This document shows, in pieces, positions 18,934 through 24,013 of a stretch of 64,000 nt of DNA (the stretch's first letter is position 1; every line of letters starts with the position of its first letter). The DNA lies in NCBI RefSeq assembly GCF_036226605.1, contig NZ_CP109000.1, forward strand, positions 5,824,501 through 5,888,500, given 5' to 3'. A program made the position numbers and the translations under genes. The notes beneath the pieces were generated by a model that was not told the DNA's origin, made no database searches, and saw nothing but the letters and a program-made list of their open reading frames with translations. This DNA is from Streptomyces sp. NBC_00704 (GTDB lineage Bacteria > Actinomycetota > Actinomycetes > Streptomycetales > Streptomycetaceae).

Positions 18934-21900
18934 TCAGCGGTCCTTCTGTTCCTCCGCCACCTGGAGCAGCTGCTCCGCCTCGGCCCGCCGTGCCCGCGCC
19001 GTCCCGTCGTCGCCCTGCGGGCTCCGGCCGCGCCGGCCGCCGCCGTACTCACCGTGTTCGCCGGGCTCGTCGAGGCGGCCGTGTCCGGCCTCCGCGTCGG
19101 CGCCCGACCCGGCGCGCGACTGCGCGTCCGCGTAGGAGCGCAGCACCGCACGCGCGCGTGCCGCCGCCTCGGCCGGACGCCCCAGGTCGCTCTCCAGCCA
19201 GCCCGCCGCCAGCTCCGCGCCGGTCCGGGCGTGCAGGGCGCTGTCGCCCAGGGCGACGAACACCGCGACGGCCTCGGACATCTGGGAGAGCGCCTCGTCC
19301 AGAGCGGCCCGGATCGCGTCGTCGTCGGCGTCCTCGGCGGCCGAGCGGGCCAGCAGATCCCCGAACTGGCGGTGGGTGTCGCCCAGTTCGACGACGATCC
19401 GGCGGCGCACCTCGTCGTCGTCGCGGGCCGCGTCGAACGCGTCCGCGCACTCCTCCAGGGCGCTCGCCATCAGGTCGCGCGCCGCCTCGGCGCCGCCCTC
19501 GGCGCGCAACGCCAGCCACGCGCGGGCCCGCAGTGAGCGGACCAGCCCGTGGACGTTGCCCAGCTCGCGCCACAGCGCGCCAGCGCGCGCGTAGGCCCGG
19601 TCCGCGTCGGCATGCAGACCGGCCTGGCCGAGCGACTCGGCGGCCAGGTGGGCCAGGGTCGCGTGGTCGTGCTGTTCGGGCCAGTGGCGGGCGGTCTCGG
19701 CCGCCTGCAACCGCCGCTCGGCGGCGTCCCGGTGCTCTCCCAGCTCGCTGAGGCAGTCGCCCAGCCACCACTGCGTCTGGACGACCGCGCCGTCGCCGTG
19801 CGTGTCCGCGCTCAGGTCCGCGAGCGCCGACTCCAGCACCTCCGCGGCCTCGGCCCAGCGGCCCTGCCGCACCAGGTACCCGCCGAGCTGGTGGCGCGCC
19901 CACGCGCCGAACGTCGGGCCCACGCCCGCCTCGTCGGCCCAGTGCGCCGCCTCCAGGGCGTGCTCGGCGGCCTCGGCGTCCTCCCCCCGGCCCCCGACCA
20001 CTTCGGCGAGCTGTAGATGCAGCTGGGCGCGCCCCACCGCCTCCAGGTACGGCCCGCCGTGCTCCAGCGCCGCCCGCAGCGCCCGCTCCGCCTCCGCCAT
20101 GTCGTCGAGCTGGTGGGCGAGACCGGCCAGCCGTGCCTCGTACTCCACGGCGAACCACGGCAGTCCGGCCGCGACGAACTCGCCGGCCGCCCGGGCGAAC
20201 AGCTCCACGCCCCCTTCCGGCTCCCCCGACCGCACCGCCAGCTCGGCGAGCATCGCGTGGCCCTCGGCGACCCGTGCGGCGAGCCGCACGTCGTCGCCCG
20301 CCCGGCCCTCCACCAGCGCCAGCAGCTCCCGCACGGCCGCCTCCGCCGCCGTCAGGACGCCGTCCGGCACCGGGCCCTCGGCCCCGTGGACGTGCCGCAT
20401 CAGGATCCGGGCCCGCGCCATCAGCACACCGGCCGCCTGCGGCACCTGGGTGCCGCCGTCGGCGTACAGCGAGAGGACGCGGTCGTAGGGGCCGGCCACC
20501 GCCGCGAGCGCCTCGTCCACCTCGCCGGCGAGCGCGCGGACGTAGGCGGCACGCGCGCGTGCGGCCAGCGCCTCGCCGGGGTCGCCCGCCCGCTCGTACA
20601 GCCGGGCCGCCTCCTCGAACCTCCCGGCGCCCTCGGGGCCCAGGCCGATCGCCTCGTGGTCGGCGATCTCCGCGAGGTCACGCGCCCCCAGCTCCAGGCC
20701 CTCCGGGCCGGCGGCCGCCTCGGCGACCCGCGCCCAGGCCTCGACGGCGTGCGGCTGAAGGGTCTCCGACAGCCGCCGGGCCTCGGCGAGCAGAGCCGCC
20801 GACTGCGGCCCGCCGGACTCCCCGGCCGCGGCCGGAGCCTGCGCCGAGGGCTTCGGGACGGCCCCGGCGGACACCGGGCGCGCGGTCCGCACCCCCAGGG
20901 GCAGCCGCTCCACCAGGGGCCGCCGCGCCATCCGCGCGCGGGCCCGCTCGCTGACGTGCCGGGTGCCGTTGCGCTCGTCGAAACGCGCGGCCAGCGCGAG
21001 CGCCTGCACGCGCGCGTGGTCGGCGAGTGCGGCGGCGGTCCACTCCCGGCCGGCCGGCCCGGGCACCCGCTGACCGCCGAGCCCCAGCTCCGCCAGCCGG
21101 TCCATCAGCAGCACCGTCACGCTCAGGAACTCCATCCTGCTGCGCGGGTGCCCCTCGTCGGTGAAGTACGCGGGCCGCTCCGCGAGCAGCTCCAGACCAC
21201 GCGCCTCGTTGCCGGTCAGCGCGCAGAACTCGACGTGGTCGGCGTAGGCCCCCCGCATCGACTCCATGGGCCGCACCAGCCGGAACCCGCGCAGATGGTG
21301 GGCGCGGGCCTCCTCCGCGCGGCCCAGCCGCAGCAGCGGCAGCAGGGACGAGGCGAGCACGGTGTGCGGCTCGTGCGCGCACGTGTACTCGCCCTCCAGG
21401 ACCGGCGCCCACACCTCCAGGGCCTCGGCGTCCCGGCCGCGCTCCGCCTGCCACCAGCCCTGCCCGTGCAGCTCGCACGCATGGCAGTCGGCCATGGCGT
21501 CCCGGTCCGCGGCCAGCCAGGCGGCGAACGCCCGCTCGGCCCGCTCCACGTCGCCCACGTGCGCGGCGACGCTGAACTCGGCGCTGCGCACCGCCCGCTC
21601 GGAGTGCCCGGCGAGACGGTAGCGGTGCTCCATCTCGCCCAGCCACTTCTCCACCGACGCCAGCGGCACGTGCGGCTGGTCGAGCATGCCCGCCGACATC
21701 CACTTGAAGACCCAGTGCAGCGTGTGCGTCTCGTACGCGTCGAAGTCCTCGGGCCGCTCGTCCCACATGCGCAGCAGCCGCGCGAACGGGACGAACATCT
21801 TCGCCTTCTCGGAGCTGTAGTTGTAGACCTTCAGCTGGTGCCCGAGCGCCTCGATCACGGCCAGCGGGATGCCCAGCCGCTCGGCCTCCGCCAGCAACTG

Positions 21901-21993
21901 CTCCGCGCGCGCGTTGCGGGCCGGGCCCTCCGGCTGCTCGCCGTTCTCCGCCATCGCCCGGCGCAGCGAGTCGAAGTCCGTGATCTCACTCAT
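18934..21993 (-). CDS. Large TPR-type helical repeat protein paired with Hsp90-family gene
   Basis: A 1019-residue all-helical protein with no signal peptide or membrane segment. Residues 60-320 contain helical pairs with W and H-rich segments; residues 400-950 show repeated TPR-like units spaced about 34-40 residues (e.g. AVEYEARLAGLAHQLDDMAEAERALRAALEHG, WAEAAEVLESALADL). The tail is a Gly/Asp/Arg-rich linker ending in a short coiled coil. Its ATG overlaps the end of the Hsp90-family gene by eight bases, so translation is coupled and a physical partnership is likely (inference). I cannot name a function. Spacer repeats lie downstream. Confidence 0.85.
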   Translation of the reverse strand: MSEITDFDSLRRAMAENGEQPEGPARNARAEQLLAEAERLGIPLAVIEALGHQLKVYNYSSEKAKMFVPFARLLRMWDERPEDFDAYETHTLHWVFKWMSAGMLDQPHVPLASVEKWLGEMEHRYRLAGHSERAVRSAEFSVAAHVGDVERAERAFAAWLAADRDAMADCHACELHGQGWWQAERGRDAEALEVWAPVLEGEYTCAHEPHTVLASSLLPLLRLGRAEEARAHHLRGFRLVRPMESMRGAYADHVEFCALTGNEARGLELLAERPAYFTDEGHPRSRMEFLSVTVLLMDRLAELGLGGQRVPGPAGREWTAAALADHARVQALALAARFDERNGTRHVSERARARMARRPLVERLPLGVRTARPVSAGAVPKPSAQAPAAAGESGGPQSAALLAEARRLSETLQPHAVEAWARVAEAAAGPEGLELGARDLAEIADHEAIGLGPEGAGRFEEAARLYERAGDPGEALAARARAAYVRALAGEVDEALAAVAGPYDRVLSLYADGGTQVPQAAGVLMARARILMRHVHGAEGPVPDGVLTAAEAAVRELLALVEGRAGDDVRLAARVAEGHAMLAELAVRSGEPEGGVELFARAAGEFVAAGLPWFAVEYEARLAGLAHQLDDMAEAERALRAALEHGGPYLEAVGRAQLHLQLAEVVGGRGEDAEAAEHALEAAHWADEAGVGPTFGAWARHQLGGYLVRQGRWAEAAEVLESALADLSADTHGDGAVVQTQWWLGDCLSELGEHRDAAERRLQAAETARHWPEQHDHATLAHLAAESLGQAGLHADADRAYARAGALWRELGNVHGLVRSLRARAWLALRAEGGAEAARDLMASALEECADAFDAARDDDEVRRRIVVELGDTHRQFGDLLARSAAEDADDDAIRAALDEALSQMSEAVAVFVALGDSALHARTGAELAAGWLESDLGRPAEAAARARAVLRSYADAQSRAGSGADAEAGHGRLDEPGEHGEYGGGRRGRSPQGDDGTARARRAEAEQLLQVAEEQKDR

Positions 21994-23848
21994 CGTCGGC
22001 CGCCTGTCCCTCCGCCGGCTCCCGATGGGCCGGCTCCCCGTGTGTGGCCCACTCCAGAAGGCCGATGAACGCCCGGTTCAGCAGCGCCGAGTCCGCCGGG
22101 CGCAGGGGCCGCTGCGCCATCAGCAGCGCCTGCCCGTACAGGGACTCCGTGGCCGTGCCGATCAGCTCGGGATCGCGCAGCGAACCGATCCGCCGGATCA
22201 GCGGGTTGAGATGGTTGAGCACCAGACGCGCGCGTGGGGCGCTTCCGCGCAGCGAGCCCAGGATGCCCGCCCACAGGTCGTCGGCCTCGTCCTCGGCCTG
22301 TGCGCGCGCCTGCTCGTGCCTCGCCGCCCGGTCGTCCAGATGGAGCGCGGGCACCGACAGCGGATGGAAGGCCCGCAGGACGACGTCGCACCCCAGCGGG
22401 TCCAGCCTGGCGCGCGCGGCCGCCAGGAAGCCCGCCAGCGCCAGCTCGTCGGCCGCGTCGACGCCGTCCAGGTGGGCCGTCACGGTGAGCGCGTCCAGCT
22501 CGGCGACCACGGTCCCCGGCCGCACCGAGGGCAGCGCCTCCACCAGCTCGCCGTCGTACGTGTAACCGCCGTTGACCACCCCGACGCCCTGCGCGGAGGC
22601 GATCGGCGCGACCTGCCGGAACTCCTCCACGGTCCGGGTGAAGTGCACCACCGGGTGGCGCCGGGCGAAGTCCTCCAGCGACAGCCGTCCGTCGGTCGTC
22701 TCGAAGGGCAGCCACGGCAGCATCGTGCGCAGCATCTCCCGGTCGTGCCGCGCCAGGGACTTCACGCCCAGGTGGTGCACCGCCAGGAAGGCCGTGAGCC
22801 GCTCCGGATCGCCGGCGGCCAGTCCCGTCAGCCAGGACCGGATGCGCCCGCCCAGCGCCTCGCGCACCGCCGCCAGCGTCTCGTCCTCGTACAGCGACTC
22901 CCGCGACGCCGTGGGGCGCAGACTGTCGGTGTCCAGGACGCAGCGCACGAAGAACGCCCAGTCGGGCAGCAGTTGTTCGCCCCGCTCGGTCAGCAGCATG
23001 CCCTTGAGGTGCACCCGGTGACCGCCGCGCTGCGCCGGGCTGACCGCCGACGGCAGCACGTACGCCACCCCGCGGACGCCCGCCAGCGGCACGTCCAGTT
23101 CGACCGCGTCCAGCGGTGTGAAGCCGAACAGCTCGTGACAGTGCCGGGCCAGCGCGACCCGCCGGGCCGCGGGGGAGGGGTACGGGCGGTCCCAGGGCGC
23201 GGGCAGGTCGGCGACCGCCTCGTCGCCGACCCGGACGTCGTACGGCAGCAGCGACCCGAAGTCCCGCGCCAGCTCCCGCACCCGCGACGGCGTCAGCCAC
23301 TCCCCGGCGCCCGCGCGGGCCTCCAGATGCACGGTGGTGCCCGGCTCGGGACGCTCCTCGTGGGGCAGTGTCCGCACGGTGTACGAGCCGTCGTCGCGGG
23401 CCGTCCACTCCACGGGCGGCGCGTCCGGCGTCCGCGCGCTGCGGCTGACCACCCGGATCCGCTCGGCGACCACGAAGGCGGCCAGCAGCCCGATGCCGAA
23501 CTGCCCGAGGAAGTGCGAACGCGCTTCCTGGAGGCCCTCGGCGCGCTTGGAACTGCGCCCGATGGTGGCCAGCAGGCTGTGCACGTCGGCCTCGGTGAGC
23601 CCGATGCCCGAGTCCTCCACCCGCAGCCGCCCGTCCGCCGCGACCAGCCGCACCCGCGCCGGGGCGCCGGGCTCCTCGGCCCGCCGGGCGGTGACGGCGT
23701 CCACCGCGTTCTGCAGCAGCTCCCGCAGGTAGACCCGCGGACTGGAGTAGAGGTGATGGGACAGCAGGTCCACCAGGCCGCGCAGGTCGACCTGGAACGT
23801 GTGAGGCGGCCGGGGCGCCTGGGATGACTGTGAGGTCTGGGAGTCCAT
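21986..23848 (-). CDS. Divergent Hsp90-family ATPase
   Basis: A 620-residue Hsp90-type GHKL ATPase. The N domain has the Mg-binding N47 in RELLQNAVDA, DSGIG at 79-83, the lid glycines GQFGIG at 115-120 and GTTV at 170. The middle domain keeps the ATP-contacting arginine R316 in the TASRESL segment after LPDWAFFVRCVLDTDSL. Beyond about residue 400 similarity to HtpG fades, and the protein ends with the acidic tail GQAADDE. It is therefore not standard HtpG but a divergent relative with intact catalytic residues. It is the first gene of a two-gene operon with a TPR protein, divergent from recG. Confidence 0.9.
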   Translation of the reverse strand: MDSQTSQSSQAPRPPHTFQVDLRGLVDLLSHHLYSSPRVYLRELLQNAVDAVTARRAEEPGAPARVRLVAADGRLRVEDSGIGLTEADVHSLLATIGRSSKRAEGLQEARSHFLGQFGIGLLAAFVVAERIRVVSRSARTPDAPPVEWTARDDGSYTVRTLPHEERPEPGTTVHLEARAGAGEWLTPSRVRELARDFGSLLPYDVRVGDEAVADLPAPWDRPYPSPAARRVALARHCHELFGFTPLDAVELDVPLAGVRGVAYVLPSAVSPAQRGGHRVHLKGMLLTERGEQLLPDWAFFVRCVLDTDSLRPTASRESLYEDETLAAVREALGGRIRSWLTGLAAGDPERLTAFLAVHHLGVKSLARHDREMLRTMLPWLPFETTDGRLSLEDFARRHPVVHFTRTVEEFRQVAPIASAQGVGVVNGGYTYDGELVEALPSVRPGTVVAELDALTVTAHLDGVDAADELALAGFLAAARARLDPLGCDVVLRAFHPLSVPALHLDDRAARHEQARAQAEDEADDLWAGILGSLRGSAPRARLVLNHLNPLIRRIGSLRDPELIGTATESLYGQALLMAQRPLRPADSALLNRAFIGLLEWATHGEPAHREPAEGQAADDE

Positions 23849-23922
23849 CGCTGCAGCGCCGCGGGCTGGGGGAGGAGCACGGCGCGGGGTCGGGCGGTCC
23901 CGGTGGGGCGGTGACCGCGGAT

Positions 23923-23940
23923 GATGGCCAAAGCGCCATC
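23923..23940. promoter_or_regulatory. Inverted repeat upstream of the Hsp90-family gene
   Basis: GATGGC-N6-GCCATC is a perfect 6-bp inverted repeat in the recG-hsp90 divergent gap. On the minus strand a TACGAT -10-like hexamer (23938-23943) overlaps one arm, so a bound protein could block the Hsp90 promoter. It is not a HrcA CIRCE or HspR HAIR element. Confidence 0.35.
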
Positions 23941-24013
23941 GTAGGGCCCGAACGAGCCGTCTGACCAGGGGTTTCGGGACACCTGTGCGGCGATGTCAGT
24001 GCCGTGGTGTGCA

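Follow-up and report, generated by a model that had tools for sequence, protein, structure and literature searches.

In eukaryotes, Hsp90 teams with tetratricopeptide repeat (TPR) co-chaperones such as Hop, FKBP52 and PP5; the available part of a 2021 paper describes bacterial Hsp90 as having no identified co-chaperone for remodelling. Whether a bacterial Hsp90 can have a TPR helper of its own is the question raised by a 64,000-nucleotide stretch of the Streptomyces sp. NBC_00704 genome (NZ_CP109000.1, positions 5,824,501 to 5,888,500; hereafter the window), in which a gene for a divergent Hsp90 overlaps the start of a gene for a large TPR-type protein. An initial annotation of this DNA had reported the two open reading frames (ORFs) without giving a strand, an eight-base overlap between them and a setting between core-type genes, and we find all three to be as reported: both ORFs lie on the minus strand, the overlap reads ATGAGTGA, and the pair is flanked by recG (1145.6 bits), which is divergent, and by a Dak2/FakA-like gene, which is convergent. 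Given these orientations of the neighbours, the pair stands as a bicistron on its own. Our survey of relatives shows that the pairing goes far beyond chance, and the conserved gene order in several phyla strongly supports the proposal that the two proteins would act as a functional unit, as the initial annotation had suggested; its idea of how they bind, through an acidic Hsp90 tail, did not survive, because that tail is not conserved.

The pairing was surveyed in 393 genomes of the class, scoring per genome up to three candidates for the Hsp90 and five for the conserved N-terminal domain of the partner (TPR-N); as so few candidates were scored, extra copies of either may be missed. The Hsp90 was found in 52 genomes (30 of the 44 in the genus of the window) and TPR-N in 56. 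At 58 of the 60 Hsp90 places, TPR-N lies downstream on the same strand with at most 381 bases between profile ends; at the 59th (genome G629), a local profile search recovered it (E ~1e-29); and at the 60th (G265), the Hsp90 gene overlaps by 4 bases a gene for a different TPR protein, one that scores above the Pfam cut-off. An apparent Hsp90-TPR fusion in genome G651 was rejected, as the joined frame results from a frame break near the Hsp90 end. The pair is also present at all 80 named loci (the best-scoring 80 of 576), which are Streptomyces or Actinacidiphila by name except for "Actinobacteria bacterium OV320" and, being close relatives, are not independent. The gene ends at these loci overlap by 4 bases (n = 53), 1 base (n = 18) or 8 bases (n = 4), or are separated by a gap of 5–19 bases (n = 5); where several starts were possible, the codon closest to a 4-base overlap was chosen, which favours the 4-base count.

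Canonical HtpG genes differ in this respect: a TPR-N match was found in the fetched DNA at 0 of 23 control HtpG loci, hand-picked from the weaker Hsp90 matches, compared with 59 of 60 class places for the window-type Hsp90. In the neighbourhood survey that the initial annotation had called for, homologues of the two genes occur together. A Pfam scan of 45 ORFs downstream of the control HtpG genes gave no TPR family among the 25 of 81 matching families listed, and at six annotated HtpG loci the next downstream gene was never annotated as TPR (two of these loci have a "hypothetical" or DUF gene there, on the same strand as htpG). At one Leptospira locus (L238, 1154-5303), htpG follows batD and two VWA genes and a TPR gene lies two genes upstream, a further Hsp90-TPR neighbourhood with a different layout.

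The two proteins also appear to have been inherited together. Hsp90 and TPR-N trees agree in their main groups, several TPR-N forks being weak, and the two distance matrices are correlated (r = 0.915 for 26 pairs, Mantel p 0.0001), although this correlation alone could reflect common descent. Loci L043 and L216, which come from different families, are joined at 100/100 in both trees, consistent with transfer of the pair as a unit, and in genomes G023 and G153, with two copies each, every Hsp90 is matched with the TPR type that belongs to its clade. These results bear on the alternative explanation that the Hsp90 and the TPR protein are merely co-expressed, e.g. as two independent stress proteins that make no contact. 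Overlapping genes are common in GC-rich genomes and some genomic sites retain the TPR gene but no Hsp90, as mere co-expression would allow; we nonetheless consider it improbable, given the recurrence of the pair in several phyla and genomic locations, the co-divergence of paralogues within one genome, the apparent joint transfer, and the lack of any half pair in the 149 matching E. coli genomes described below.

The profile matches and tree position of the window Hsp90 indicate that it is a full-length paralogue of the canonical HtpG of its own genome. It is a full member of NCBIfam NF010683 ("HSP90 family protein"; PRK14083), a model that covers the Hsp90 alone and not its partner, and it fails the canonical HtpG model NF003555 (171.9 bits vs. 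a cut-off of 371); the distinct canonical HtpG of the same genome scores 184.2 bits to NF010683. In a tree of 42 Hsp90 rows, 12 canonical HtpG proteins form one clade at 100/100 and 27 window-type rows form a separate clade at 100/99; a Pseudomonas/Xanthomonas type joins the window-type clade and a Pseudanabaena protein joins the HtpG side, each at 93/81 on a long branch, and either join may be false.

As the initial annotation held, the ATP-binding and middle-domain residues are kept: E43, N47, D50, D79, G81, G83, GQFGIG 115-120 and R316, to which we assign the presumed catalytic roles of the Hsp90 ATPase site and of the middle-domain arginine (R316), are invariant in alignment A1 (11 sequences: the window protein and ten relatives, the most distant 35% identical). 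The protein thus shares with canonical HtpG the GHKL ATPase site, the middle-domain arginine and a three-part architecture that aligns over nearly the full length. Its C-terminal third, described earlier as non-HtpG, is divergent and not foreign, because A1 profile positions 11-588 align with HtpG 4-611 and hhalign extends the family over nearly the whole of Salmonella HtpG. The AlphaFold2 model is of middling confidence (mean predicted local distance difference test score, pLDDT, 67.0); its top Foldseek matches are full-length HtpG and TRAP1 (E ~1e-20) with TM-scores of only ~0.3, which we attribute to the unsure arrangement of domains in the model. Together, alignments and model point to an N-terminal–middle–C-terminal architecture with an HtpG-like C-terminal domain.

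The AlphaFold2 model of the partner is confident (mean pLDDT 86.9) and comprises two all-helical modules with a disordered linker between them. Foldseek returned generic TPR superhelices (OGT, LGN, Ski3, Ctr9 and similar) among the 50 matches listed, with no Hsp90 co-chaperone among these 50. Pfam TPR scores of the window protein stay under threshold, that of a Listeria relative passes TPR_8 (26.1 bits over a cut-off of 25.7), no NCBIfam model was matched, and the Pfam scan detected no thioredoxin domain. As 50 of the 63 invariant columns in alignment A2 (10 sequences) fall in residues 1-369, the core common to the partners is, in the aligned sequences, a stretch of ~350 residues at the N-terminus that in most cases contains a CxxC motif. 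This motif is retained in 25 of 29 TPR-N domain rows, mostly as DCxxC with a third cysteine; the rows that lack it are L205, L162 and both domains of L208, a locus (genome G588) where the gene after the Hsp90 encodes a TPR protein carrying a tandem pair of N-domains and whose genome has a second, ordinary pair elsewhere. CxxC as a mark of Hsp90 pairing was rejected, since the eight class orphans and the Actinomyces orphan keep it and the paired L205 and L208 do not.

Table 1. Features of the Hsp90-TPR locus (window positions; coordinates on the forward strand).
Feature	Position	Strand	Basis
Divergent Hsp90 paralogue, 620 residues	21986..23848	-	NF010683 850.1 bits vs. curated cut-off 455; invariant ATPase residues; Foldseek top match full-length HtpG 2iop
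Partner, 1019 residues, predicted all-helical TPR-type solenoid	18934..21993	-	ORF; TPR_12 21.7 bits (cut-off 30.1); AlphaFold2; Foldseek
8-base overlap ATGAGTGA (coding strand; TPR start, Hsp90 stop)	21986..21993	-	Sequence
ADDE C-terminal tail of Hsp90, not conserved	21989..22000	-	2/80 relatives; pLDDT
TPR-N, conserved N-terminal domain of partner, residues ~1-365	20899..21993	-	Alignment A3; common to Listeria and Paenibacillus partners
CxxC motif DCHAC, C170-C173	21475..21486	-	Invariant in 14 rows of A3
Third conserved cysteine, C205	~21379-21381	-	Invariant in 14 rows of A3
Disordered linker, residues 368-396	20806..20892	-	pLDDT <50
C-terminal TPR module, residues 397-962	19108..20805	-	AlphaFold2 model
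Intergenic region between Hsp90 and divergent recG	23849..23992	.	Some Streptomyces share conserved blocks; neither HAIR nor CIRCE found

How might the two proteins meet? The initial annotation looked to the acidic ADDE tail: the TPR repeats would bind it much as MEEVD is bound by the TPR co-chaperones of eukaryotes. ADDE is indeed present in the window Hsp90, but it ends only 2 of the 80 relatives: a D or E is final in 4 and R, K or H in 64, and Hsp90 C-termini in other clades (LRKDS, RILEML, RLLGQ or KQGM) do not form an acidic tail. The tail is also disordered in the model (pLDDT <50 for residues 605-620), and its final "DE" is a consequence of the overlap, because the last Hsp90 codons, GAT GAG TGA, include the ATG AGT that starts the TPR gene, which forces those letters. 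We therefore reject docking on the acidic tail, which is hardly credible on this evidence; unlike the eukaryotic partnership, the bacterial pair has no conserved MEEVD-like tail, and its genes are adjacent and overlapping.

Outside the class, our evidence is a convenience sample of plasmid, phage and E. coli collections; with it, the pair spans three phyla (Actinomycetota, Bacillota and Pseudomonadota) and possibly a fourth, Cyanobacteriota. Listeria has the same pair, with an Hsp90 that scores 799.4 bits to NF010683 and a partner that is TPR-N alone in two tandem copies (324 and 320 residues), and so does Paenibacillus, whose partner is TPR-N alone (353 residues); these partners (320–353 residues) are too short for the C-terminal TPR module. 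At one Listeria locus (L154, 9903-10649), a gene of the SMI1/KNR4 family follows the Hsp90 gene and the two TPR-N genes, perhaps in the same operon. Seven records of the plasmid collection match at least 80% of the Hsp90, six with TPR-N adjacent; in the seventh, from Pseudanabaena, a TPR gene is the second gene downstream. NZ_CP030101 (L155, 2.9 Mb) and NZ_LT559118 (L163, 11.9 Mb), filed as plasmids, are probably chromosomes, judging by their size.

P. aeruginosa, Xanthomonas and Salmonella have a related Hsp90 followed by a TPR-like protein of 764–774 residues, a second partner family whose gammaproteobacterial members are 39–62% identical to one another. The related Hsp90 proteins score under the NF010683 cut-off (293.1 bits for Pseudomonas, 285.8 for Salmonella). 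A Nature 2023 paper considered as literature on PA1068 was set aside, because PA1068 there is the name of a strain. Of 5426 complete E. coli genomes, 149 have a pair of this second type; in every one of them the match is chromosomal and spans at least 80% of the query, which comprised both genes, and the count, made by megablast, is a lower bound. In FDAARGOS_144 (L245, 6001-10144), the cassette is annotated "ATP-binding protein" and "hypothetical protein" and lies between fdhD and yiiG. Nonomuraea has a stand-alone relative of the second partner, with no Hsp90 beside it and without the CxxC.

The Pseudanabaena locus, on plasmid ABRG53a (L157, 5932-8565), encodes an 877-residue Hsp90-like protein with a weak C-terminal match to the CAP12/Pycsar TIR domain (PF10137, 19.5 bits, under the cut-off of 24.7). 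The next ORF resembles this TIR-like C-terminal region; upstream lie genes for a TIR-domain protein and a helicase.

In the main rival explanation, the Hsp90-like protein would be no general chaperone; it would serve a signalling or defence module as a switch powered by ATP, with the TPR protein as its sensor or platform. GHKL/Hsp90 ATPases do have other roles, and the window Hsp90 matches TmtA and REase_II weakly in PADLOC; the CAP12-type region and its TIR and helicase neighbours in Pseudanabaena, the Hsp90 copies on some Streptomyces plasmids, the status of the pair as an accessory cassette in E. coli, and the company that TPR-N orphans keep with YbjN or cyclic-nucleotide-binding genes would also suit such a module. 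The PADLOC search for a known anti-phage system, however, gave only matches to the ATPase domain, of at most 33.3 bits, and none for the TPR protein; the Hsp90 has the full-length HtpG architecture with conserved ATPase residues; no annotated defence gene lies within 6 kb of the cassette in the one E. coli genome viewed; and recG, in divergent orientation, adjoins the window-type Streptomyces copy at 72 of the 80 named loci (recG was not found in the fetched DNA at the other eight, one of which, L054, ends just upstream). We consider a signalling or defence switch unlikely.

We favour, with somewhat better than even confidence, the proposal that the pair is a dedicated two-part chaperone machine, made up of an NF010683-type Hsp90 and its own TPR co-chaperone or client adaptor. 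The Hsp90 would be an ATP-driven dimer, separate from the housekeeping HtpG, and the TPR protein would be its own scaffold, acting as co-chaperone or as client adaptor. The overlapping gene ends may couple translation and keep the amounts of the two proteins matched; the TPR N-domain (~350 residues) would dock on the body of the Hsp90 and not on its C-terminal tail; clients could be presented by the C-terminal TPR module of Actinobacteria, which is variable; and the cysteines of the N-domain may stabilise the docking domain or bind metal. The broader proposal is more tentative, and we put it at a little under even: bacteria would have a real co-chaperone system of Hsp90 and TPR protein, either ancient or convergent with that of eukaryotes, and Actinomycetota, Bacillota and Pseudomonadota (including some E. 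coli) would both inherit and transfer it as a cassette of two genes, with docking by a conserved, usually cysteine-containing domain and not by an acidic tail.

Several observations weigh against a machine of this kind, most of them concerning TPR-N. The domain stands without the Hsp90 at 8 of its 67 class places, with no Hsp90 in the fetched flanks of these eight, and also in Actinomyces and Priestia; at one recG site (L204, 4469-9823, genome G610), the TPR gene is alone and the Hsp90 is missing, the genome retaining another Hsp90-TPR pair elsewhere. In three genomes of one genus (L199, L200 and L203), an orphan TPR-N is fused to a C-terminal YbjN domain, and YbjN genes lie near orphan TPR-N at L200 (4-base overlap) and in Actinomyces oris (L161), which suggests YbjN as an alternative partner; at two further loci (L201, 6944-10252; L202, 4829-8089), the orphan adjoins a short protein that matches the cyclic-nucleotide-binding domain (by Pfam in L201). 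The domain is therefore not specific to the Hsp90, and the YbjN fusions and other Hsp90-free places make it a reusable adaptor; the Hsp90 depends on the TPR protein (59 of 60 places) more than the TPR protein does on the Hsp90. Two partners that are paired with the Hsp90 (L205 and L208) lack the CxxC. The homology of TPR-N to the gammaproteobacterial partner is only suggestive: three versions of the hhalign comparison returned probabilities of 24%, 11% and 51%, each of them aligning the CxxC. Finally, neither of the heat-shock operators HAIR and CIRCE, scanned for with consensus sequences, has a match near the pair.

Parts of this system have precedents. The available part of Chen et al. 2006 (PMC1525184) describes HTPG Group C, a second HtpG type in Actinobacteria, Firmicutes and gammaproteobacteria, and two HtpG copies in S. 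coelicolor, so that several HtpG types per bacterium are already known; the window Hsp90 may belong to Group C, being likewise a second HtpG type in the same bacterial groups. The terms "TPR" and "operon" do not occur in the text of that paper. CnoX/YbbN, a TPR-containing holdase described in the available part of PMC10490939, likewise places a TPR protein in bacterial proteostasis, but the thioredoxin domain is what we did not detect in the window partner. In the open-licence PubMed Central literature, as far as its texts were available, an Hsp90-TPR partnership of this kind was not found in print.

Bacterial Hsp90 has been supposed to lack a helper, and the TPR protein is a specific and strong candidate for one. 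If so, the co-chaperone-free view of bacterial Hsp90 would hold only for canonical HtpG. The pair has a bearing on the question of whether assistance of Hsp90 by TPR proteins was invented by eukaryotes. Our analysis also suggests functions for families now annotated "ATP-binding protein", "HSP90 family protein" and "hypothetical protein".

Farther out from the pair in the window lie an rsmD-type methyltransferase gene (Cons_hypoth95), a cytidylyltransferase-like gene and a phosphomethylpyrimidine-kinase-like gene; a sigma-70 promoter scan detected nothing. A phage origin was rejected, as no relative turned up when viral_contigs was scanned with the alignment of the Hsp90. Both proteins have PHROG families, but the phage records that match TPR-N comprise four short fragments from Listeria and a single faecal scaffold, which is unverified; we take these records to be bacterial DNA. 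The scaffold (L244; MT837560, "Bacteriophage sp.") encodes an NF010683 Hsp90 (645 bits) followed by a TPR-N protein; it is probably bacterial DNA filed as phage, and is possibly a source of PHROG families 32952 and 34905.

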